Of a stretch of DNA of 64,000 bases, positions 1-52,510 are shown in pieces. The stretch comes from Polytrichum commune (taxonomy: Eukaryota; Streptophyta; Polytrichopsida; Polytrichales; Polytrichaceae). Numbering within the stretch: the stretch's first letter is position 1; each line of letters opens with the position of its first letter. A program made the position numbers and the translations under genes. Location: contig OX485805.1 in assembly GCA_950295325.1 (NCBI GenBank), positions 52,724,758 to 52,788,757 of the forward strand. The letters are read 5' to 3'. The notes beneath the pieces were generated by a model. The model was not told the DNA's origin. It was given only the letters and a program-made list of their open reading frames with translations, and did no database searches.

Positions 1-2971
1 ACGGAGACGTGTTCCTGCTGAAGATGGGATCCCGTAACGTGGTAGTGGTGTCCTCCCCAGAAATCGCCAAGGACGTGCTCTTCACAAAGGGAGTCGAGTT
101 CGGATCCCGCAGCGGAAACATTGTCTGGGACATCTTCAGCGGGCGGGGACAGGACATGGTGTTCGCGGCCTACGGTGATCATTGGCGCAAGATGCGTCGC
201 ATTGCCACCGTGCCATTCTTCACCAACAAGTCAGTCCAGCGGCTGCAAGGCGGATGGGAGGATGAGACTGACCGTGCCATCGAAGATCTCAAACACCGAC
301 CAGAGTCGGCCACCTCCGGGGTGGTGATCCGGAAGAGGCTGCAGCTGCTCATGTACAATGTCATTTACCGGATGATCTTCGACACAAGGTTCAAGAGCGA
401 GGAGGATCCGTTGTTTTTGAAGCTGAGGGCGCTTAACCTGACACGGAGCCGTTTGACGCAGAGCTTCGAGTACAACTTTGGGGTTTTCATCCCCATCCTG
501 CGACCGTTCTTGCGAGGATTTCTGCAACTGTGCCGGGATATCAACCGGGAGAGGCATGCCATCTTCAAGAGCTTTCTCGATGACCACAAGTGAGTGTGTA
601 GGGTTTAGGGTTTAGTGAAGTAGGCCCATTTACCAGGTTTTGTGACATGTCCACGTCACCCCATGTTTCCCTCCCATGCTTCCCTAGATTGTAAATTAAT
701 GATGTGTTGATTGCCATTTCAAGTTGGCAAGCTCTCTAGTGAGTGACGTAGAAGCAAGCCCATGCACTAGGTTTTTTGATCCACTTCATCCCGTGATTTC
801 CTCCCATTTTTCTTCAGGTGGTAAATTGTTCAACGTTGCTTCTTGGTTCATTGGTTTATTTCCACTTCTATGAAAAACAAAAAAAATTAGTATAGAATAT
901 ATAGTCTTAACAATTATGGTTGTAATGCAAAAACCAACCCACACTGAATACTCCCTTAAATAGTTGCTCCAAAATTATGTTTTAAAGACGCTGACCCCTG
1001 CAGACACAACAGATAGTTGCCACCTGAGGATAAGCCTCAAGTGTTCTAATTCTGTCAATATGCTTTTAGTTGCTATTGATTGAAGGTCGTGTCATGTGTG
1101 TACGTAAGCTGATGGGTTTCAAAATTTGGCAGGAGGATTGCGAGTACGAAGGGTCCTGAACTGGTGAAGGAATGTGGTATCGACCATATTCTCGAAGCAA
1201 AAAAGAATGGAGAGATCACTGAGGCTAACATCCTCTACTTGATTGAGAATCTCAATGGTGCAGGTACTGGGGATTTAACTACTTATCTCTTGTGTGTCAT
1301 CCCACCATGGCCCACAGTGCAAAATATGTGTAAAATGGCAATACACTCTAGTTATTATAAATGAAAAGTGCATTATGAGATGAATCAAGAAATATAAAAG
1401 TAACTGCTTTCTAGTCTAGCTAGCACACTTTACCAACAAAAAAAAAATTTTAAAAAATCATCCACTATTCATTCTTTTAAGGTTAGACTTCTGAACTTTG
1501 AACATTTTCATGTAAGAAAGTCAGGCTACAAAATGGCATGAGGCAAGCATAAACCCTTAACTCTAAATGGAATGGAATTCGGAAAGCCGAGCATAAAGTA
1601 TGAAGAAAGACACAGAACATCTGATACCACACTGATCTTTCATATTTAGATCTAAGGGTCTTTCTCCAAAACTATCTCATGATAAACTTTGTATGGATTG
1701 TGGAGATTGTCTAAGTACGTGAATTGAACCAGGACCAGTTTTCCTCTGTACCCTTGAAGTTGAGTCCAAATTTAGGTTTGCAGGACATCATAATGTTTCG
1801 ACAATGGATATTGGTTCCAAAAATCTATGTTGGAAATTGAGAAGTCGAGTATAAAGTGTGAAGAACTCAAACTAATCATCTGATGTGGCAGCCTTTAGAA
1901 TTAAGAGAGGCTCTTTGTCGAAGAGAATTTCAGAATGAACTTTGTGTGGATTTGGAGATTTATACATGGATGGAACCTTGAAGACCAGTTACAGTCTCTG
2001 CGCCCTTGATGTTGAGCCACCATTGGAGAACTCCCAGGTCGACATGAATCATTTTCCTTGAAGGTCGACGAATAAATCCAATTTCGTTCAATTTCAATTC
2101 TTCTTTAAAAAAATCATTTTTGCAGGAATCGAGACCACGTTATGGTCCATAGAGTGGGGGGTGGCGGAACTAGTGAACAACCCCGAGATGCAAACACGCA
2201 TCCGGGACGAGCTCGATGCCGTCCTCGGGCGAGGCACCCTGGTGACAGCCGCCGACACACACAACAACAAGCTCCCGTACTTCACGGCATTTGTGAAGGA
2301 GGTGATGCGCTTCCATATGTCCATCCCGCTCCTCGTCCCCCACATGAACCTCCAGCCCGAGAAGCTCGCAGGCTACGACATCCCCGCGCACAGCCAGGTC
2401 AGTGTCCGGGGACAATAATCGGTCAAAATCCTAGTGTTGCCAAGTCCAACCGGTTACATGTTCCGATCTTTCAGGCTTTATTTATTTTTGGTCGATCGGA
2501 GGCACACTCTGTAGATCCTTCTAAATCAATCGGTAAACTTCCTTGGAAGACTTGAACTTCAACCAGCTATTTCTCAAAACTCAACCGGTCGATCTGTAAT
2601 AACTAGCGGTTGATTCTCCTCGTTCACTGAGCCAGGTATTTGTGAACTCGTGGTGGATCGCCAACAACCCCAAGTACTGGGAGCAGCCCGACAAGTTCAT
2701 GCCCGAGCGCTTCTTGGACGGCCAGCCCGCGGCCAAGATGGAGATCACAGGGAACGACTTCCGCTTCCTCCCCTTCGGCGTCGGCCGACGGTCGTGCCCC
2801 GGGATCGTGATCGCCGTTCCCGTGCTGTTCATCGTGCTGGGGCGCCTCGTCCAATCGCTGGAGCTGCTGCCGCCACCTGGCGTCAAAAAGGTGGACGTCA
2901 GCGGCACCTGCGGCCAATTCAGCAACCGCATTGCCACCCACTCCACCGTCGTCCTTCGCCCAAGGACGTAG
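1..2971 (+). CDS. CYP73A-like cytochrome P450 paralogue, 5' end outside window
   Basis: Exons read as <1-589, 1133-1263, 2126-2397 and 2636-2971, all with GT-AG borders and consistent phase. The product resembles cinnamate 4-hydroxylase, an ER-bound P450 converting trans-cinnamate to p-coumarate. Visible: the segment [11 protein letters not shown] (C helix), [16 protein letters not shown], an I-helix GIETT, the ExxR motif as EVMR, and the heme loop [10 protein letters not shown], ending in PRT and a TAG stop. The membrane anchor and proline hinge are upstream of the window. It is clearly diverged from the neighbouring CYP73A: the I-helix reads NGAGIETT instead of NVAAIETT, and the C-terminus reads [10 protein letters not shown] instead of [10 protein letters not shown], losing the lysine that matches Lys484 of CYP73A1. 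The frame is intact throughout, so it may be functional with altered activity. It has an extra intron (2398-2635) absent from the neighbour. Family call is firm; C4H activity is uncertain. Confidence 0.9.
1575..2025. repeat. Imperfect tandem duplication inside intron 2 of the first P450
   Basis: Two related blocks, about 1575-1775 and 1838-2025, share segments such as cgag(c/t)ataaagt, catctgat, tcttt(c/g)tc, gaactttgt(a/g)tggat, a ggaccagtt-type segment and cccttga(a/t)gttgag in the same order. The period is about 265 bp and the copies are well diverged. It lies wholly within the 862-bp intron (1264-2125). No coding potential was seen. Confidence 0.6.
2400..2629. mobile_element. hAT-like non-autonomous element forming intron 3 of the P450
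   Basis: The 230-bp insert begins CAGTGTCCGGGG and ends TCCTCGTTCACTG, whose complement is CAGTGAACGAGGA, giving short imperfect terminal inverted repeats of the YAGNG type known from hAT transposons. It is flanked by a perfect 8-bp direct repeat AGCCAGGT at 2392-2399 and 2630-2637, the length expected for hAT target duplications. The intron (2398-2635, 238 bp) equals the element plus one duplication. Excision in silico joins codons Ser-Gln-Val-Phe-Val without frame change. Internal segments (ggtcaaaatcctagtgtt, aaccggtt, ctcaaccggtc) recur in copies at 21255-21500, 27560-28137 and about 39.2-39.45 kb. No transposase was seen. Confidence 0.85.
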
Positions 2972-6970: not shown

Positions 6971-9900
6971 TTACACCCTGGGTCTGACGACAACTGTGGA
7001 GTGGGTAGCGATGTGAAGACTGAACTGCCCACCTTTCTCTGAAACATCGATTTTCTTCACACCGGGAGGAGGAAGAAGCTCGAAAGATTGGATGAGCCGG
7101 CCGAGGACGATGGATAACAAGGGCATCGCGATGATGATTCCCGGGCACGATCGCCGGCCCGCGCCGAACGGCAGGAACCGGAAGTCGTTACCCGTTGCCT
7201 CGATCTTGCCGTCAAGGAAGCGGTCGGGGTTAAACTTCTCGGGTTCATCCCAGTGCTTGGGGTTGTTGGCGATCCACCACGCGTTCACGAGGATCTTGCT
7301 CTCCGACGGGATGTCGTAGCCGGCGAGCTTCGCCTGGTGGAGGTTCATGTGAGGGACGAGTAGCGGGATGGCCATGTGGAGACGCATCACCTCCTTCACA
7401 AAGGCTGAAAGGTAGGGAAGCTTGTTGTTGCATGTGTCGGGCTCGGTGACGAGGTTACCCTTTCCGAGGACGTCGTCGAGCTCCTTCAAGATGCGGGATT
7501 GCATCTCGGGATTGTTCACGAGCTCCGCCACTCCCCACTCAATCGACCACAAAGTTGTTTCAATTGCTGCAAAACACACAAACAAACCCAGAACGAAAAC
7601 AAAAGCTGATCAGTCCGCTGATGAAAAGATGCACCGGAAGAAGAGATGCACATTGATGACTCTAATATTGGCACCGGCATGAATTTATGATGTCGCTTCA
7701 CCTTTCAAGGTAGTCTAATTTTATGTGTAACTTTGAAAACGGACGTCCAAGAATTAGAGGGGACTTTGAAGACTACTACCTCCGAGGTTGGCAGGAAACG
7801 AGGAGCGAGATTGACAACGAATGACATCTTCATGTTTGGAATATTTACCTGCCACATTGATGTTCTCAATAATGTACAGAACATTGTCCTCGTTGATTTC
7901 CCCTTTCTTCTGAGCATCCAGAATGTGGTCGATGGCACACTTATCAGCATCTGATTGAGCCCCCTTCACACTTAACAATTTCCTGCCAATGTTCAACACC
8001 GATTTGTTAGTGAAATTCACCCATTTAAGCATTGTAACGTCCTACCGAAATTTTCTTGGTGAACTTAGAACAAACAAGAGAAAAAATCATCATCCTCAAT
8101 TACACAATTCAATCGATTGCTAGAAATCAATCAGGTTGAATTGTTACTGATAGGAAACATCATGTGCCTTGAAGACAGAGCTCATGAGTGCCATTTAACA
8201 CAGGGTCGCAAAGATCATATTTTGTGGCAAAATAGTCAATTTCGTGCACACTTGACAAACAATGTGGTTCTTTCCATGGGTACCAGGTGACAAATGTCAA
8301 ATGGGCCATGCCAAAAAGACCGTTCTTCACCTGAGAGGAAAGTCTAAGGATTTTCAAAGGCTCTGCACCATCGATACCTCACCATAGACTACCCTTTACT
8401 ATTGATACGCTTCACCCGAAGTTTCCCGGGAGTGAACCACGCATTCCAGAACATCCACCTCCCTTGCTCCAAAAGCATCATATTGGTTAACAGATTCTCC
8501 ACAGTTCATAACGATGTGGATAATCTTGTACACTAAGGTTTGAATTACTAAGAGGTGGTAGAATAAGCCGTATGGTCCAATAGATTCTTTACAAATATCT
8601 AAATAATGTGCTAAATCTTGTACAACCAGATTGACTTTCCAACAAGATGTAGAAGAGGCCCTAAATTCAAGTGCACACACCTTACTCACTCAGAAAATTT
8701 CATGTGGTCCACCAGATTCTCTGCAAAATTTTAAACTATCTACATACACAATCTTGTACAATCATGTTGAATTGCAAATTCGTGGTGGAAGATTCCTAAA
8801 AAGGTTGAACTAATTGAAATTTTTAGAATGACCCAAGTTAAGTTTCTGCTTACTTGCGCTCCTCGAGGAAGGATTCCTTGAAAAGAGCCAACCTCCGGTC
8901 CTTGATATCCTGACACACCTTCAAGTAGCCCTTGAGGAACGGTCGCAGGATGGGGATAAAGTCACCGTAATTGTACTCGAAACTCTGTGCCAACCGAGAC
9001 CGCTCGCCATTCAACGCCTTCAGCTTCACATACAAAGGGTCATCTTCGCTCTCGAAGCGAGAATCGAACATCATCCGGTACATGATGTTGTACATCATGA
9101 GCTGCAATCCCTTGCGGATCACCACACCGGTGGTGGCTGCCTCGGGCTTAGCCTTGAGGTTCTTGATCACATGGTTAGCTTCGTCTTCCCATGCCACGCG
9201 AGATTGTTGCACCACCTTGCTGGTGAAGAAGGGCACGGTCATAATGCGCCTCATCCGCCGCCAATGCTCCCCGTAGACCGTGAACACCATGTCTTGGCCG
9301 TTCCCTGTGAAAATGTCGAACACCACGTTGCGAGTTCGGGAGCCGAACTCCACTCCCTGTGTGTGAAGAACATCTTTAGCTATGTCGGGGGATGACACCA
9401 CAACCAAGTTGCGTTGCCCCATCCGCAGCATGAACACGTCGCCGTACTTCTGAGACAACTCTGCCAAGTTCCTGTGGTTCAAGTCATCTCCGACCTGGGA
9501 ACGCAAACACCGATTCAAGGTGCCAAGTTAACCCACTTGTCTCACACAAATCAATAAGCTCTTATTCAAAAATAATTCACCTGAAACTACCGAAGGTCCA
9601 AATTAACCCACTTACTGATCCACAACCATGCTCAAACGAGTATCAAGTCATCTCCGACCTGGGAACCCAAACATCGAATCAAGGTGGAAGTTGACCCACT
9701 TCTTTCACTACCATGAGCACTTAATCAAAGAGCATTCACTGGCAACTATCGAAAGTGCAAATTAACCCACTTACTGATTCACAACCGTGAACACTAATAC
9801 TCAAACAGGTTTCGCGGAAAACTATCGAAGTTTCCAAGTTCACCCATACATTTCACAACCATGAGCACTAGTACTCAAACAAGTTCCACCAAAACCAATC

Positions 9901-21254: not shown

Positions 21255-21500
21255 CAATGAAGAGGGGGAACCCACCAACCGCTACTTACAGATGAACCGG
21301 TCGAGTTTGAGAAATAACCGGTTCAAATTCAAGACTCCAGGAAAATCACCAATCCAGTTAGAGGAATTTACAGAAGATTCCTCAAATTAATAAAGAAAAA
21401 GCGAAGAAAAAAATGTGAACACGCAACCGGTTGGTCTTGCAAACACTAGTAAAGCATAGGATCTCGACCAATTTATGCCCAAAAAAATCCCCGGACACTG
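21255..21500 (-). mobile_element. hAT-like element, same family as the P450 intron
   Basis: Read on the minus strand it starts CAGTGTCCGGGGATTTTT and ends near CCCCCTCTTCATTG. It carries the family's internal blocks (ttgggcataa, gatcctatgctttactagtgtt, caaccggttgcgtgttc, aaccggttatttctcaaact, gaccggttcatctgtaa, tagcggttggt). Its 8-bp target duplication is CTAAGCAT at 21246-21253 and, on the other side, C+TAA+GCAT split by a later insertion (21501-21504 and 22361-22367). Length is 246 bp with no coding capacity. Confidence 0.8.
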
Positions 21501-21504
21501 CTAA

Positions 21505-22360
21505 GAGCAAGCCCAGTCGTTCCTGGATCTGCATTTGCATCCGGGAATGAAAAGTGGCCTCCATCCAGAATGCAGATGCAGACCCATGCAAAACTGCCAC
21601 TCATTTTGCATTGCTTTCATCAGAATTTCTTCTAAAATGATTTGTAGTTTTCTGAAGTCATGAACTTCAACCGGTTAGTTCTCAAACTCATATGTGCTTC
21701 ATGCGTAACTAGTATTTTTTTCTTGGTTTACCCTAAACTATAACTGGTTATTTTTGAGCTCCTCCATGCTTCATGCGTAACTATAATTATTTCCTAGGTT
21801 ACCCTAAACCTCAACCGGTTATTTCTCAAGCTCATCCGTAATTTGCACATGAATATAATTATCTCCTGGTTTACCCTAAACCTCAACTGGTTCAACCGGT
21901 TATTTCTCAAGCTCATCTGTAATGTGCACGTGAATATAATTATTTCATGGTCTACCCTAAACCTCAACCGGTTATTTCTCAAACTCATCCGTAATTTGCA
22001 TGTAACTAGAATTATCTTCTGGTTTACCCTAAACCTCAACCGGTTATTTCTCAAACTCCTCCCTAATTTTGCGCGTAACTAGAATTATCTCATGGTTTAC
22101 CCTAAACCTCGTCATTCACTAGGACCCTATCATATTGAGTTGTCTTTAGTTAAAAGCCGCCATGAAGTTGTTTGTCCTTAGCTGATAGTAGGTTCCCTAC
22201 ATATCTCGACGAAATGCAGGGAGTTCTGCACTTCCTGTATTATTTTACATCCAATTTTAGCAAATAGCAGGGTGACTGGGCCAGTATCCTGCATCTTCAA
22301 CCGCATCGCGGATGAAAAAGCGCAAATGCAGATGCAGGTGCAGGGTCATTGGGCTTGCCC
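21505..22360. mobile_element. Harbinger/Tourist-like element nested in the hAT target duplication
   Basis: 856-bp element with ends GAGCAAGCCCAG and CTGGG/TTGGGCTTGCCC in inverted orientation, then further inverted matches (cctggatctgcatttgcatcc against gcgcaaatgcagatgcaggtgcag). It is flanked by a TAA direct repeat at 21502-21504 and 22361-22363, the 3-bp duplication typical of PIF/Harbinger elements. The interior consists largely of the minisatellite at 21663-22110. No transposase was seen, so it is non-autonomous. Confidence 0.75.
21663..22110. repeat. 70-78 bp minisatellite, about six units
   Basis: Units begin near 21666, 21738, 21808, 21880, 21960 and 22035, with consensus order cctcaaccggttatttctc, aa(a/g)ctcatccgtaatttgc, a(c/t)(g/a)taactagaattat and ctcctggtttaccctaaa. 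One unit has a duplicated AACTGGTTC-AACCGGTT. The AACCGGTT palindrome and ttatttctcaaactc are shared with the hAT-like family. Minus-strand repeated open frames here (21794-22054) are by-products of the array, not a gene. Confidence 0.85.
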
Positions 22361-27559: not shown

Positions 27560-28137
27560 CAATGTCTAAGGAGATTTTTGGGCATAAGCGGTCAAAATCC
27601 TAGTGTTACAAGTTGTGATCTTTCAAATTTTCTTTATTAACATGAATTATATAGTAGAGGTGTCTATTCTCGATGAGGACCCCATTGACAAAATCTTGAT
27701 CAGGTTAGGATTGAATTTCAATGAGGTCAAACCCAATAGTGCCATGACATATATATGTCTTGGTTTTAAGTGTTAAAGTGAGAAGGAATGAACGGTTAAA
27801 ATGAGTGGTCATGGCATACTCTAGACATTGGTAATATGTTTGGGCAAACTTTTGGCTTCAAAAATTCACATGTAATTTCAATTTAAGGAATAAAATTATC
27901 AAGGAAATTATAATTCTCATGATTTCTATCTTCCTACACGGGAAAAAAATGCACCACCTTATACTTCCCAAGATCTGATGCGTAATCTCTTAAGTGATAG
28001 GTTATAAACACCTCTACTCTATTCTATAGATTTCTATAAAAGGACTAGTAATTCTCCTCAAGTGTTGAACTTTAAGTGGTTGTTATCAAACTCAACTAGT
28101 TCACCTATAGCTAGTGGCCAGTTCTCCCCATTCATTG
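27560..28137 (+). mobile_element. hAT-like element, longer copy of the P450-intron family
   Basis: Starts CAATGTCTAAGGAGATTTTT followed by gggcataagcggtcaaaatc, and ends gttctccccattcattg, matching both ends of the 2400-2629 and 21255-21500 copies. Flanks CCTTTAGG (27552-27559) and GCTCTAGG (28138-28145) match at 6 of 8 positions, consistent with an aged 8-bp target duplication. The interior (578 bp total) contains AT-rich sequence absent from the short copies. No transposase frame was seen. Confidence 0.7.
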
Positions 28138-31405: not shown

Positions 31406-32038
31406 TCATGAACAGAAAATTGGAGACGACATCAGGAACTGGAACTCCCTGAAATCCACCATCTGGTCACCGTCTCGGTCGACACTGCGGATCATGCACC
31501 GACAATCCTCCAGGGTCGTGTGCTTGTCGCCCAGGCTGACCATCACTCGGTGCAGCTCGTCTGCCGAAATGAACCCATTCTGGTCCACATCGAACACGTC
31601 GAACGCAGATCGCAATGCTTGCTTCTCTTCATCATCAACACTGTCTGCAGATAATTCCTCTCCACCAACTTCACTAATTCCTCCGCTACTGCTGCCACTG
31701 AGAGTCCGGGATAATTCTGCCGAATTAGCAGCACTGGTGCTTTTGGTTGTGTTGAATCTGATGAACTCGTCAAGGTCGATAAACCCATCGCCATCCGCAT
31801 CCGCTCTCATCATCATCTCATCGACTTCGGAGTCCTTGAGAACGTTGCGGCCATCATCAAGGCTGCTGAGTACAGCAACAAGCTCGGTTTTGGAGATTTT
31901 GCCATCGCCGTCCCTGTCGAACACCTTGAAGGTTGCGGTTAGCTCTTTCACAAGAGGGGCAGGTATGTCACTCCAGGTCCCCGAATTACGCCTTGACGAC
32001 CTCGAGCTGCTGCTCCGGCTCCTCAACCGCAACTTCAT
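31406..32038 (-). CDS. Calmodulin-like protein, four EF-hands (210 aa)
   Basis: Intronless. A basic, serine/arginine-rich N-terminus (residues 1-20) precedes two EF-hand pairs. Loops: DRDGDGKISKTE (41-52), DADGDGFIDLDE (80-91), DVDQNGFISADE (150-161) and DRDGDQMVDFRE (187-198). All keep acidic residues at positions 1, 3, 5 or their usual substitutes, and Glu at 12; the fourth has Gln for the usual Gly at position 6. The linker between pairs is long (about 58 residues) and Ser/Glu-rich, unlike calmodulin, and the protein is longer than calmodulin (149). Role: calcium sensor binding target proteins when loaded; targets unknown. Resembles plant CML proteins of the CML25/26/27 type, but the exact member cannot be set. 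Paralogue of the gene at 40837. Confidence 0.93.
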   Translation of the reverse strand: MKLRLRSRSSSSRSSRRNSGTWSDIPAPLVKELTATFKVFDRDGDGKISKTELVAVLSSLDDGRNVLKDSEVDEMMMRADADGDGFIDLDEFIRFNTTKSTSAANSAELSRTLSGSSSGGISEVGGEELSADSVDDEEKQALRSAFDVFDVDQNGFISADELHRVMVSLGDKHTTLEDCRCMIRSVDRDGDQMVDFREFQFLMSSPIFCS

Positions 32039-32350
32039 TTTCGAAAGATAATCTATATGTAAAGTTCAACCCTGGAAGTTTCTTTCAACCTCACTTTGAA
32101 AACACACTTTGAGACTCTACTCTGCAGATCACAAAGTCACTTTGAAATACACGTTGAAACTTAGCCCTAGTACAAAACACAAACTCTCTGTGAAAGTTAA
32201 CCCTGCAGGTCACACACTCATTATGAAACACACTTTGGAACTCACAAACCCTAACTTGTGCACATCACAGATACGATAGAGATGCTGATGATTCACTCAA
32301 GCTTCTGCAAATTCTGATCCCACTAGACTCATCCATCCTTCTTATATATA
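32039..32350 (-). promoter_or_regulatory. Leader and TATA box of the first calmodulin-like gene
   Basis: On the minus strand, tgacgtatatataag places a TATATATA box at about 32350-32342, some 300 bp upstream of the ATG, next to a TGACG core (a bZIP-type site; inference). The leader between contains degenerate repeats of cactttgaaa/cacactttg (about 32085-32245). Confidence 0.5.
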
Positions 32351-39016: not shown

Positions 39017-39164
39017 CCCTTGTTATCACTTGCACATGCTACTAGCATTTTGTGAATACATCCGGATGTAGTTGACAAAAGCTGACTCCACAGACCAATT
39101 CAAGCGAACCTGGCATTTGTGACACTTGTGCGTGCCATGTGACATTTTCACAAAATACCATGTT

Positions 39165-39449
39165 TCCTAAAGTCATGAACTTCAACCGGCTATTTCTCAA
39201 ACTCAACCGGTTCATCCTTAACTAGATCGTTTTGTCTAATTAATGTGGGTTACCATTCGAAGTTACGTGTTGCTGTAACTTTTTTACTGACTTTATCAAT
39301 TGAGTTACATCATATTCTTCAGTGTGCAGACTAACTGCTTATGTTATTTGGATATAAAATAATACTCTCAGTTATAGCAATGCGTAACTCCAAGTGGTAA
39401 CCCACACTAATTAGACAACAGTGTGGCGGTCGGTTCTCCCCATATATTG
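39165..39449 (+). mobile_element. hAT-like fragment interrupted by a family B MITE
   Basis: tcatgaacttcaaccggctatttctcaaactcaaccggttcatcc...aactag and then, after the MITE, cggtcggttctcccca...attg reproduce the 3' half and 3' end of the hAT-like family in order. The 5' end (CAGTGTCCGGGG) is not recognisable. The MITE occupies 39232-39418. Confidence 0.65.
39232..39418. mobile_element. MITE family B, copy 3, inserted in a hAT-like copy
   Basis: 187 bp with TIRs ttgtctaattaatgtgggtt and aacccacactaattagacaa, continuing into gaagttacg/cgtaactcc. It splits the hAT-like copy, so it inserted later. Some flanking bases (atcgtt; cagtgtgg) belong to neither and obscure the target duplication. Confidence 0.8.
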
Positions 39450-39984: not shown

Positions 39985-40836
39985 TGGTCTTTGCCTGAGC
40001 AACCAACCAGCTGAGTGGGATCAGATACATCATCTAGTGTAGATTTTGTGAGTTTGGGTTTCGAAACCCAAATTTGAAGCTCAGCTGCACTCCTCCCATG
40101 AATGGTAGAGTGCTTTAACACATGAGAATGCAACGTTCGATTTTTGTCGTTCATTTTAAAGACTTGTATAAGATTATAAAGCTGGCACCTTCGATTGATT
40201 GGGGTTTTGGTGGTGGTTTTTAAGTTTCAAGTTTGTTAGTATCTTTACATCTGTTGTGGGCTCGAGAGAAGTCGAAGTGAGTGTGCCAGATTTGTGGTGA
40301 GTTGAAGAGTGTGGGTGATTGATTGCCTGAGCAACCTGAGTGGATCAGATGCTTCGGGGTAGATATGTGACGTTGATTCAGGTTTAAAACCTAAAATCAG
40401 AATCAGGCTTCAAAGCTGTGGTAGACTCCTAGAAGCTTTCCACAACCTGAGAGGGAAAAAAACGCTTGACAGGTTCGTTCTGACCTTCATCGTGCAATCA
40501 TCGATCTCAGACCCTGTCTTCGATTGGGGTTTAGGGTTGATCCTCAGTTTTAAGTGTGTTGTTGGTTCAATGTTAGAATCAGAGTGCCGAATTTGAGGTC
40601 ACAAGAGCATCTTAGATTTGTAGACATTAGAGCTCTGTTAAACTCCTGGTACCTGAATTTCTACAAACCGAGAGGAAACACGTTTGACAGATATTTATTT
40701 ATTTATTTGACCTTTCATCATTCATTCATCGATCTCAACTGAACCCTGTGTTTGGGTTGATCTTCAGTTTCAAAGGTTGTAACTATTGTCCAATCCGAGA
40801 ATATACACAGTCAGACTGCCGAAATTTGAGGTCACA
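39985..40836 (+). repeat. Triplicated leader upstream of the second calmodulin-like gene
   Basis: Three successive units share cctgagcaacc...gagtgg(g)atcagat (first two units), cttcgattgggg, gttgatc(c/t)tcagttt and, at their ends, gtgcc(a/g)gatttg(t)gg (about 40282), gtgccgaatttgaggtcacaa (about 40584) and ctgccgaaatttgaggtcac (about 40818). Spacing is about 303 and 233 bp. The last copy runs directly into the start codon (gaggtcacaATGG); the middle one reads gaggtcacaAGAG. This implies the leader expanded by tandem duplication. Confidence 0.7.
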
Positions 40837-41460
40837 ATGGCGTTGGATTCCGAGAATCAACATGCTCGTGCGGTGGTTAAGAAGCTCACCAGTTACACCG
40901 ATCAGATCACTACCCGCCCCGGCCTCCCCGCTCACCTTGTGAGGGAGCTGAGCGAGACGTTCAAGATCATCGATGTGAACGGTGATGGCAAAATCTCGAA
41001 GGAGGATCTGGGGATAGTCGCTCGGTCTCTCGGGGACACGGTGGAAGACGCCGACCTGGAGAAGTTGGTGGCCGAGGTGGACGCAGATGGCGATGGGTCC
41101 ATCAACTTGCAAGAATTCATTGATCTCAACACGCGAGCCGTCGATGGCGAATCAAACCATGTTGACAAGTTTGGAGAAGATTCCGAGTCTGCAGAAGACG
41201 CATCCGGTAATTACTTTGGAAAGTTTGGTGTGGACCGTGAATCCCTACTGTCTGCGTTCAATGTGTTCGACGCAAACGGCGATGGGTTCATCTCCGCAGA
41301 TGAGCTTCACAGAGTACTCGTGGGGTTTGGTGACAAGAAAGTGTCCCTGGAGGATTGCTGCGCGATGATCGAGTGCGTCGACGAAGATGGCGATCAGAAG
41401 GTCAATTTCAAGGAGTTTCAGTCTCTCATGATGGGTAGCTGCCAAGATTCCGAAACTTGA
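40837..41460 (+). CDS. Calmodulin-like protein, four EF-hands (207 aa)
   Basis: Intronless; the start is the first in-frame ATG (cacaATGGcg, good plant context). Loops: DVNGDGKISKED (46-57), DADGDGSINLQE (82-93), DANGDGFISADE (145-156) and DEDGDQKVNFKE (182-193). The first has Asp rather than Glu at position 12, which in other EF-hands weakens calcium relative to magnesium; the fourth has Gln at position 6, as in the paralogue. The linker between EF pairs is about 51 residues, acidic, with a repeated DKFGEDSES/GKFGVDRES motif. There is no signal peptide and no terminal prenylation or palmitoylation motif. Shares FISADELHRV and a similar helix after EF3 with the gene at 31406. Likely calcium sensor in cytosol or nucleus; target unknown. 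Confidence 0.93.
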   Translation: MALDSENQHARAVVKKLTSYTDQITTRPGLPAHLVRELSETFKIIDVNGDGKISKEDLGIVARSLGDTVEDADLEKLVAEVDADGDGSINLQEFIDLNTRAVDGESNHVDKFGEDSESAEDASGNYFGKFGVDRESLLSAFNVFDANGDGFISADELHRVLVGFGDKKVSLEDCCAMIECVDEDGDQKVNFKEFQSLMMGSCQDSET

Positions 41461-43446: not shown

Positions 43447-46400
43447 TTAAGTTAATGCCACACCTTCAGAGTGATCAGGACAAGGTGCTTCAAGCCGCAA
43501 GTAATCATACATGACACCAGTGAAAGGCCCTATAGCCTTCCGTTGTCTGAGAAAGACAGTGTTGTGCCCAACGTGGAAGAGCTTAGGATCGATGTTCATA
43601 ACCCAGAACCTATAGATGCCTCGAATTCCATGACGAGCAATTGAATTGTCTTTGCCATACTGCATTGTGTCAAATACTGGCTTTCGAGCGTCGGGGTTAT
43701 TTACAAACAGCTGCATACATAACAGTTGAAAGTTACAATTTCTCACCCCACACCTTTTATAAATCCCACAGAAATGTAGGGCTATTTAACCCTTAAAGGA
43801 TTGGGTATGTATTTATATAGGATACATGACAATCTTTACAAAACCCCCATACACTATTCAAAGAATATTATATTCGGTCTATGATAATGAATCCATATTT
43901 AGCACAACCTATTAAAATGAGGTCAAAATCAAGCCATATGTGACAACGGTGATTAGACATACATGATATGTATTTAGATCTATGTCATTTTTTTGAGCTC
44001 TAATCTCCCTGTCTTTCATTTTAAATATATGTATGCTCTTATTTAAATAACGCATATGATAAGTGCGATAATTTTAGATAGAGTTATTTTCGGAAATTTT
44101 GGGCTAACAAAATAAAGAAGTAAATTTGAATTCCTCCATATGACACCTCAAGGCCTGGAATGGGCCTCTCAGACCTTTAAGAGTTAAGTAGTCTTTGAGG
44201 GAAGTTGGGAAATACATAAGGATAGACACCTTACCTGTATGGCTGCTGTACTTGAAGAAGCTGTTGCAATAAGCAATTTGTAAAACCCCTGCGTGCTAAC
44301 TTCAGGAAGCTCAAACTGCACCTGCCATGTTGTAGGTGTATACGAACCATCTGGCATTATCCTGCAATCTCCCCCCCCACACACACACACACACACCTTT
44401 GTTTATGGTGCTTGTCCTGATTTTTCTCAAATTTTGTCGAGCTCAAGAGCAATTGTCGGGCTAAAGTGGATACCATAGCTATAAATTATCAGTTGTGAGC
44501 CTCGTAAGTTTCCAACAAAATAAAGCTCAAGAAATAGTCCAATTTTGACACCCCTCATCTGCCAAATTGTGAGTTTCATCATTTATCTAATTCTATGCTA
44601 CTAACTGAGCACAACCTATCACTTGTCAAATCAGAGTTCAAAACCTTAGCATTTCTGCTTCAAGAGATACACCTTGAGATAAAGAGTCCATATCCGAGAT
44701 TGGTAGTCCAAAGCTTCATGTTTCATGTTCTAACTGAATCTTTAAACTAATGAATGTCAACAATTATGGATAGAGAAGAAAAGCTTTTGTCCTACCGATT
44801 AAGGTGTGCGAAGAACCAGTCAGTCTGCCAGTTGCTTGTGCCAACTGTGTACACCAAGTCCTCATTAGGATAAAGCTCTGTGTACCGTTCCCATAATCCA
44901 TACTGCCTCCATCTGCCACATAAAACCTTGAATTAACCTTTAATTCACATACAGATCCGGCCACTTCCTTTACACGCAGCAGAAAAATCCCTGAATTTTG
45001 TTATATGAGCATGCCCATCGTCAGAGAGTTCAGAGATCTTGAAGTAATTTGGTAGCTTGATTACTTATTGTTACCTACAATAGTGCCGAGGATTCTAGGA
45101 TTTGTGCACCTAACATCCATGGCACAGAGGTCACCTGAATGCATATGGAGCTCACTGAACTCAGTGAATTTTAAAGTTACGACAGCCAAAAGTACAACTT
45201 TCAGGGGATGCACTCTTTATTAGGAATAAATCCAATGCGCCCTTCAAACTATTACCCTTGTATACAAAAAAAAAAAACATTGTAAGAAAAACAAGAATAT
45301 GGATACAAACGTAGAGATTACAGATAGCCTCGAATACATGTACTAGCCCAAAACATATGCATCTAATCATTATTAAAATCCTAATTTGGCATTTCCCGCC
45401 CAGATAATGAGCCTAATGTAGTTTTAAAGATAGAAGGACCACAAAATAACCGGAAGTATACATACAAAAAGACTCCAACAATATCCCTCCTATGTGTAAG
45501 AAGTAAGGGACCTATCCGATTAATACCCCTTTTGGGCACCCAAGTGGGCAGGTACTGCAGATGTTTGACTATCTCATGCAAAGATGGAACTATGTGCAAA
45601 GTTGCATAATCATTGCTTCAACCTCATCACAATCAAAGCCTAAGGTTACTAATGTTACCTACTTCTGGGAGCTGTTCAAGTAAAGCCTGTTGACATATTT
45701 TGGATTCGGATCAGGAACATAGAACCCTGTTGCTGTGCGATCAGGAAAGCCAATGTCCCAGACTGTAGGGCCAAAACGTGGAGCTCTGTATGTTATCTCA
45801 CCAATATGTATACGTACACCTGCCACAAATTAATGAGTTATTGAGCTCATCGACCATGCAAACCCAAAAGCAAAATGCCAGAGCAAATCCTCAAATAGGT
45901 TTAGGGTTCAGGACTTAGGGTTTAGGGTAACATAACACGAAATACAGAGTTGCTTGAGGGATTTGGTAGTAATTTTACGCCACAAAGGTTTCAACCATAT
46001 TAAATAGAGAAGCCTAGGAAGTTGAACCTGATTCAACTCTAACGTTTTCAAAGACAAACCTGGCTGGATGTGAATGGGGCCATTCTCATATTTGTAATCC
46101 CCAACTACACCAGGGACCCATCCGTAAAGGTCATATACACCAGCTTGGATATGCTTTATTGAGAAGCATCCATCACCATCAGCTTCAGTCCAGAATTGGT
46201 AGCCCTGTTGGTAGAAAAGGAGGATGGAAAATCAGCCGTAATTTTTTGTGTCATACCTTTATGGTGCTATCTGGTTTGACATAAATATATTATTTCTTGG
46301 AATAAGTTTCACACGTGTCATATGCCCATTGATTAGGATCCCATTGAATCTTATGTGGAATTGAAGCCACCCTTTGGTAATAACTTTACAGGTAATCAAG

Positions 46401-51629: not shown

Positions 51630-52510
51630 GGCAAGTTGGTGTTAAATCTCTTTCAACATGGATAGCTAAACCCTAAACCCATGTTGAATGAGATTTAACA
51701 CCTACTTGTACCACCAGATTCAACAAGGATTTCCTATCCCTGACATAATTTGCATGCTTAAGCATCCCTATTATTTGAAGAAGAAAAATGTCGCACCTAA
51801 CCCACATCACTCTATTTGTCTCAACAGCGACAACATAAGATTTAATACTAGAGTACTGTTCTTGTCCGACTCGTTGCTACTAATTAGCACTATCGAGTAT
51901 ATTAAACTATCACGTTTATTGAGTGCCAAGAGCAAGTCGGTGTCAAATCTCTTTCCAACATGGATTGATAAGACCTAAACCCTAAATCCATGTTGAAAGA
52001 GATTCAACACCTACTTGATCCACCAGATTAAACAGGACATTCCTATCCCTGACATAATTTAAATACTTAACCCAATTATCTGAAGAAGAGGAAGTATGTC
52101 GCACCTAACCCTATATCACTCCATTTGTCTCAACAGCGACCACATAATAACCAATTATTAGAGTACTGTTCTTGTCCGACTCGTTGCTACTAATTAGCAC
52201 TATCGAGTATATTAAACTATCACGTTTATTGAGTGCCAAGAGCAAGTTGGTGTCAAATCTCTTTCAACATAGATTGATAAGACCTAAACCCTAAATCCAT
52301 GTTGAAAGAGATTCAACACCTATTTGATCCACCAGATTAAACAGGACATTCCTATCCCTGACATAATTTAAATACTTAACCCAATTATCTGAAGAAGAGG
52401 AAATATGTCGCACCTAACCTATATCACTCCATTTGTCTCAACAGCGACCACATAATAACTAATTATTAGAGTACTGTTCTTGTACGACTCATTGCTAGTA
52501 CTAATGAACA
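51630..52510. repeat. Tandem array, about 309-bp period, roughly 2.8 copies
   Basis: Units start at about 51681, 51992 and 52299 (catgttgaa(a/t)gagatt(c/t)aacac), preceded by a partial one from 51630. Each contains tatccctgacataattt, tcgcacctaaccc, tctcaacagcgac, gagtactgttcttgt, attgagtgccaagagcaagt and taaaccctaaa. Units 2 and 3 are nearly identical and unit 1 is more diverged, pointing to stepwise expansion. It lies about 450 bp upstream of the chosen lyase start, in its promoter or a 5' intron. Confidence 0.9.

Follow-up and report, generated by a model that had tools for sequence, protein, structure and literature searches.

We report the analysis of a 64-kb stretch of DNA from the moss Polytrichum commune (contig OX485805.1; hereafter the window), complemented by searches over 408 Mb of the genome, and describe a gene of the CYP73A family, here gene A, whose third intron is very probably a spliceosomal intron born in one step by the insertion of a hAT-like miniature inverted-repeat transposable element (MITE). 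This origin had been proposed in a preliminary description of the same DNA, and the element family, its termini and the absence of the intron from four paralogous genes all fit it.

The case begins with the geometry of the insert (Table 1). The two copies of AGCCAGGT, 238 bp apart, are identical at all eight positions, with no extra matching base on either side, and the length of intron 3, 238 nt, is that of the element (230) plus one duplication (8). At the donor the left copy is joined to the transposon end to give CAG/GTCAGTG (a stroke marks a splice junction), the CAGT of the element occupying positions +3 to +6, and the acceptor lies in the right copy, ...CACTGAGCCAG/GT. Such a structure would follow if a non-autonomous hAT-like MITE had entered a single CYP73A exon at AGCCAG/GT and duplicated eight target bases; the left copy, completed by the CAGTG terminus, would have become the donor and the right copy the acceptor, and excision of the element together with one duplication would leave the coding sequence unchanged. 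The preliminary description had placed the duplication, the 230-bp insert and its CAGTG-type inverted ends, had equated the intron with the element plus one duplication and had taken the CAG/GT of the octamer as donor in the left copy and acceptor in the right; its coordinates prove exact, the repeat is perfect, and both copies of CAGGT stand at the intron edges. The inverted arms of the element are imperfect (18 nt at 78%, including one base of each duplication). The window holds 109 CAGTG...CACTG pairs spaced 60-3000 bp apart, among which a perfect flanking 8-bp repeat is expected 0.002 times and observed once; the gene A element is the sole pair with such a repeat, whether or not one mismatch is allowed. 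The pair count and the element family described below together rule out a chance origin of the repeat.

Once joined, the four exons of gene A form a single open frame, whose protein matches PF00067 (1.6e-92) and carries the P450 signature motifs. Of the solved structures it most resembles the cinnamate 4-hydroxylase (C4H) of sorghum (6vby_A, E 1.8e-183, the runner-up standing at 3.8e-48), sharing 262 identical residues over 432 aligned, and gene A accordingly belongs to CYP73A, the cinnamate 4-hydroxylase family, as judged from its closest sequence and the P450 motifs. The junction between exons 3 and 4 aligns without a gap both to the sorghum enzyme and to paralogue B, as it should if, as previously claimed, the intron breaks a run of codons that is continuous in the paralogue's exon at 6971-7566. 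The GC content of intron 3 is 0.44, against 0.61 and 0.64 in the flanking exons.

Table 1. Features of gene A, its third intron and related elements in the window
Feature	Position	Strand	Basis or remark
Gene A exon 1	3..589	+	Open frame, 97% self match; exon starts upstream of the window (upstream part seen at locus L075)
Gene A intron 1	590..1132	+	GT...AG junctions; same position as an intron of paralogue B
Gene A exon 2	1133..1263	+	Frame continuity
Gene A intron 2	1264..2125	+	Same position as an intron of paralogue B
Gene A exon 3	2126..2397	+	3' end reads ...AGC CAG
Left target-site duplication copy, AGCCAGGT	2392..2399	+	Its GT is the donor
Gene A intron 3	2398..2635	+	GT of the left duplication copy, the element, and AGCCAG of the right one
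hAT-like MITE, 230 bp, CAGTG...CACTG	2400..2629	+	Family alignment, genome copies; first bases CAGT are donor +3 to +6
Candidate branch point TTGAT	2610..2614	+	Putative; its A (2613) lies 22 nt upstream of the acceptor
Right target-site duplication copy, AGCCAGGT	2630..2637	+	Its CAG is the acceptor
Gene A exon 4	2636..2971	+	PERF and heme-binding motif; stop codon 2969-2971
Paralogue gene B, CYP73A	6971..9497	-	Three exons used; further 5' exon(s) beyond 9497
MITE copy B	21260..21500	-	71% over 182 bp, first 13 bases identical
MITE copy D, both ends and nested insert	27560..28137	+	Target duplication 6/8
MITE copy C, fragment	39163..39225	+	nhmmer E 2.8e-11

The insert belongs to a family with many members. 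The 18-base 5' end has 573 exact matches in the genome, the reversed pattern used as a control having none, so that the element has hundreds of relatives or more. With E below 1e-30 we aligned 39 genome copies besides that of gene A, which are the best matches to the gene A element and not a random sample, and they yield a 226-bp consensus, CAGTGTCCGGGGAGA...TTCATTG, with the ends CAGTG...CATTG. Among the 27 copies matched to both ends, the flanking 8 bp agree at 7 or more positions in 16 and at 6 or more in 21; for all aligned copies the figures are 18/39 and 24/39, and where left and right flanks were swapped between copies they fall to 1 and 10 of 1482, respectively. Because the duplications of the genome copies exceed the swapped control in this way, we take the gene A insert to be bounded by the ends of a genuine family of hAT-like MITEs. 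Termini defined independently, from the remaining copies, fall at the inner edges of the gene A duplication, and the 5' ends of three copies in the window align at the same inner edge, as their 3' ends do likewise. Copy B scores 79.7 bits against 35.6 for the best of 500 shuffled elements.

The nested insert of copy D has ends, TAGAGGTGT and ACACCTCTA, which resemble those of another MITE, and a further inverted-repeat element with 49-nt arms (86% complementary) lies at 39232-39418, beside or inside copy C. Adjoining copy B is a 72-bp minisatellite (21663-22110, 6.1 copies) whose unit holds the internal MITE segment CAACCGGTTATTTCTCAAACTC and which apparently grew from a piece of the element. 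At C4:7465676-7466604 five MITE 5' ends, each with a flanking AGGC, stand at an exact spacing of 228 bp, and here the family seems to have turned into a head-to-tail satellite. Five identical AGATCAATGTCCGGGGA matches at C6:37176305-37328814, roughly 35-41 kb apart, suggest large tandem segmental duplications.

Elements of the hAT superfamily are characterised by short CA(R)TG termini. The gene A element has short terminal inverted repeats with a CA(R)NG start, CAGTG...CACTG, and a target duplication of 8 bp that is perfect at gene A and, across the family, well above the swapped control. Duplications of 8 bp are those made by Ac/Ds elements, as stated in the cited account (PMC3260210). Dimerisation domains of hAT type are plentiful in the genome (150 scored matches among 1060 candidates). 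The enzyme which mobilised the family would presumably be a hAT transposase. Among the items listed for contig C1, however, 27 hAT domains were compared with 100 exact 5' ends; no domain falls inside a 10-kb limit, the closest pair standing 11 kb apart, and this is what favours an origin of the MITE in some other DNA-transposon superfamily with 8-bp duplications, of which P and Merlin are examples. Given the fit of the CA(G/A)TG ends and 8-bp duplications to hAT and the abundance of hAT domains, we regard such an assignment as unlikely, though it would leave the rest of our interpretation unchanged. The term 'hAT-like', which the preliminary description had used, stands as regards duplication length and terminal motif, and we keep it in preference to 'hAT' because no transposase is tied to the family. 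Membership of the CACTA superfamily was rejected; these elements have ends reading CACTA/G and a 3-bp duplication, and neither the strand order nor the 8-bp duplication observed here fits.

Whether the intron is removed from transcripts bears directly on its standing, and we consider it most likely, from the frame, the quality of the splice sites and the integrity of the exons, that intron 3 is spliced in vivo. Its donor pairs best with U1 of the six in genes A and B, at -9.9 kcal/mol, the other five giving -8.3, -7.6, -7.1, -6.9 and -4.5 kcal/mol. A pyrimidine-rich stretch from the 3' end of the element follows the candidate branch point, to which we give no weight because, although none of the 39 other copies has yUnAy at the TTGAT columns, 38 of them have it somewhere nearby. 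Retention of the intron would bring an in-frame stop at 2416-2418, ahead of the heme cysteine, and an unspliced intron would thus make gene A null; its intact exon would then mean that the insertion could only be recent. A recent insertion is contradicted by the divergence of the element, unless the source copy was already divergent: it lies 15.7% from the consensus, further than 37 of the 39 other copies, and has 5 indels. Exon 4, for its part, is open and in frame, keeps the PERF and heme-binding motifs and has a ratio of nonsynonymous to synonymous change (dN/dS) of ~0.11 against gene B, with dS saturated. That an element so diverged should lie between two intact exons argues for long-standing splicing.

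Several observations weigh against this account. The right duplication copy has an AG (GAG) 4 nt upstream of the acceptor, the use of which would shift the frame, so that the CAG would have to be preferred over it in the tandem AG/CCAG. Of the 32 differences between the element and its consensus, 9 are common to at least 3 of 20 other copies, and part of the divergence may therefore predate the insertion; 18 of the 32 occur in at most 1 of the 20. Neutral substitutions simulated at 15% leave exon 4 free of stops in 25% of runs, for which reason the argument from integrity leans on indels; at the rate of indels seen in the element an intact exon 4 frame would be much rarer. Gene A has also evolved faster than gene B, with 50 lineage-specific residues before the intron against 15. 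As regards the family, copy B shows no clear target duplication (3/8 at the expected place, 5/8 with a one-base shift), which fits an old copy yet gives no help to the reading of the family. The identity of the duplication at gene A was not used as a measure of age, since coding or splicing requirements constrain most of its 16 bases.

The tandem acceptors and the faster change in gene A would also be in keeping with a real insertion that is spliced poorly or not at all, the gene being disrupted or only conditionally functional. The faster change is not, however, concentrated after the insertion, where the lineage-specific residues number 9 in gene A and 5 in gene B (no difference in ratio, Fisher P 0.33), and the in-frame exon 4 with its conserved motifs and low dN/dS, as well as the strength of the donor, speak against a gene that is not spliced, which we think quite improbable.

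The polarity of the change is given by the CYP73 paralogues. When the gene A protein was used to search the genome, five CYP73 genes reached an identity of at least 60%, namely A, B, E, F and G, with the next P450 matches at 44% or less; genes E and F lie ~51-60 kb upstream on the contig of gene A and gene G 31 Mb away. The last exon of gene B, 6971-7566, homologous to the split region of gene A, is uninterrupted, as are the last exons of E, F and G, so that the intron is present in one of the five genes, and the alignment to the sorghum protein is also continuous at this codon. In a maximum likelihood protein tree of six sequences, built from two conserved blocks with sorghum as outgroup, gene A is sister to E and F (support 99) and B and G fall outside (support for B with G, 78). 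Gene A is thus nested among four CYP73 genes without the intron, from which we conclude that it was gained and not lost, a single gain in the gene A lineage being what parsimony predicts. The codons at the site read AGC AAG ATC in B and G, AGC CGG ATC in F and AGC CGC ATC in E, and AGC CAG GTA in gene A. On this comparison the AGGT target is new in the gene A lineage, and it predates the insertion because both duplication copies read CAGGT. The earlier statement that splicing restores the ancestral frame accordingly stands for the frame itself and not for the AGGT, at which the other four genes differ.

These comparisons also bear on the view that an old intron already lay at this codon and that the MITE entered or largely replaced it, the repeat of AGCCAGGT being coincidental or a mere likeness of splice sites. 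MITEs are common in plant introns, and elsewhere in the genome one lies at a native splice site (locus L011, below). Intron 3, on the other hand, consists of exactly the element and a single duplication and retains nothing of an older intron; the four genes which surround gene A in the tree have none at the codon; and the 8-bp repeat stops at the MITE family's own termini. We therefore consider a pre-existing intron very improbable. Still less credit is due to tandem duplication of an exon piece containing AGGT or to filler with short edge repeats from double-strand-break repair, since the insert belongs to a dispersed repeat of high copy number that has termini of its own and 8-bp duplications elsewhere; short direct repeats can nevertheless result from either process, and repeats of AGGT are described for tandem duplication (PMC3443670).

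Four of the five CYP73 genes lie within ~70 kb at C3:52664720-52734200. The separate clade of A, E and F has longer branches than B and may be worth examining for changed substrate use. In gene B a 159-bp unit is tandemly duplicated (9479-9786, 1.9 copies), so that the start of an exon, with its acceptor and initial codons, is present twice, and it may provide a second, possibly competing acceptor.

If the insertion at gene A produced an intron, other members of the family might have done the same, and the genome-wide search for copies which the preliminary description had suggested was carried out on part of the family. The copies flanked by AGGT comprised 21 listed 5'-end places (two of them one site), 9 in reverse orientation and 7 whose terminus is mutated. 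With the 39 genome copies added, 76 distinct loci, 52 of them aligned end to end, could be tested by in-silico excision of the element and one duplication; they make up only a minor share of the family and are for the most part copies that resemble the gene A element or have kept their ends well. Excision at gene A gives a sense frame of 223 codons over the junction, and no other of the 76 loci reaches 200. Precise excision leaves a crossing sense frame of at least 150 codons at gene A and at L011 only (181 codons, ending 2 codons past the site). Frames from swapped flanks, as a control, reach at least 100 codons in 284 of 2841 cases, 150 in 18 and 200 in none, for which reason nine further loci with sense frames of 100-128 codons look like background.

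The candidates set aside include L015, L008, L049 and L037, with crossing frames of 100-135 codons such as swapped flanks give, and three sites with perfect AGGT duplications (L060, L062 and L124), whose crossing sense frames of 49, 15 and 65 codons lie in flanks without a coding frame. Six others (L059, L013, L018, L035, L063 and L069) are pattern matches only, with no element that can be aligned. A Pfam scan of seven crossing peptides (five sense, two antisense) from loci with frames of this background length gave no match. The longest sense frame is 96 codons among the reverse-orientation sites, 4 of 9 of which align end to end, and 65 codons among those with a mutated terminus (1 of 7).

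At L011 (C3:35377619) a perfect duplication, AGGTAGGT, stands exactly at the end of an exon encoding a malectin-like receptor (PF12819, 3.6e-16). We do not count this as an intron gain; the 5' splice site was probably duplicated and an existing intron lengthened, and the position of the duplication exactly at the exon end is why the lengthening appears harmless to the gene. Among the copies that could be tested, the search gave no second intron of this origin. Further old introns of MITE origin may nevertheless exist, because many copies lay outside the set. A stronger proposal, that the family is a low-rate introner whose terminus makes a good donor (GTCAGT) from targets ending in ...AGGT, so that spliced exon insertions survive, is in our judgement unlikely. 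Were it true, several introns of the genome, with ends too decayed for searches by exact pattern, would be further products, and the family would be the first of its kind in a land plant.

Elsewhere in the window we found two uninterrupted frames for calmodulin-like proteins with four EF-hands (31406-32065 and 40783-41460), a fragment at 43447-43785 with similarity to PF14683 (1.1e-12), the CBM-like domain III found in polysaccharide lyase family 4, and a 309-bp tandem repeat (51631-52497, 2.8 copies at 90%).

The closest precedent for the intron of gene A is that of the maize Ds elements, which are reportedly spliced as introns (Giroux 1994, with Ds1 cases in Wessler 1991 and Dennis 1988). 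These cases share with gene A a hAT-type element, an 8-bp duplication, a plant exon and removal by splicing, but they are reported to be mutant alleles, often spliced imprecisely or alternatively through sites inside Ds, whereas gene A holds an apparently old and settled intron of precise geometry in an intact moss gene. Intron gain from a transposon is also said to have occurred in the catalase genes of rice (Oryza; Iwamoto 1998), reportedly likewise a natural, transposon-derived intron in a plant enzyme, though with a different element family and gene. To call a hAT case in a land plant notable, as was done in the preliminary description, is therefore fair, with the proviso that these plant cases make it not the first of its kind.

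Insertion of a transposon at AGGT proto-splice sites is a published model of intron gain, outlined in a 2012 review (PMC3443670). As in gene A, the AGGT is there duplicated on both sides, the left copy serving as donor and the right as acceptor with the coding sequence unchanged; the model as described in that source differs from gene A, where the transposon terminus completes the donor (GT followed by CAGT). The same review counts 35 unambiguous intron gains by transposon insertion across all species (PMC3443670). Introners are described as non-autonomous DNA transposons with terminal inverted repeats and target-site duplications that serve as introns, and in some families both splice sites come wholly or partly from the duplication; the 2022 survey from which these statements are taken reports no introners in land plants (PMC9860276). 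In the open-access literature searched, the titles listed included no land-plant introner and none on intron gain from hAT elements in land plants. Introner families have many intronic copies, whereas the moss MITE family is of high copy number with a single new-intron copy found among those that could be tested.

The intron of gene A is, then, a new and unusually complete example of a known mechanism. It is seldom that the origin of a single intron can be documented with its source, target, polarity and family all known, and here one genome supplies the related elements, the duplication made by the insertion and the four paralogues that lack an interruption. The completion of the donor by the transposon terminus at targets ending in AGGT, a point absent from the cited description of the model, offers a possible reason for such introns to function from the outset.

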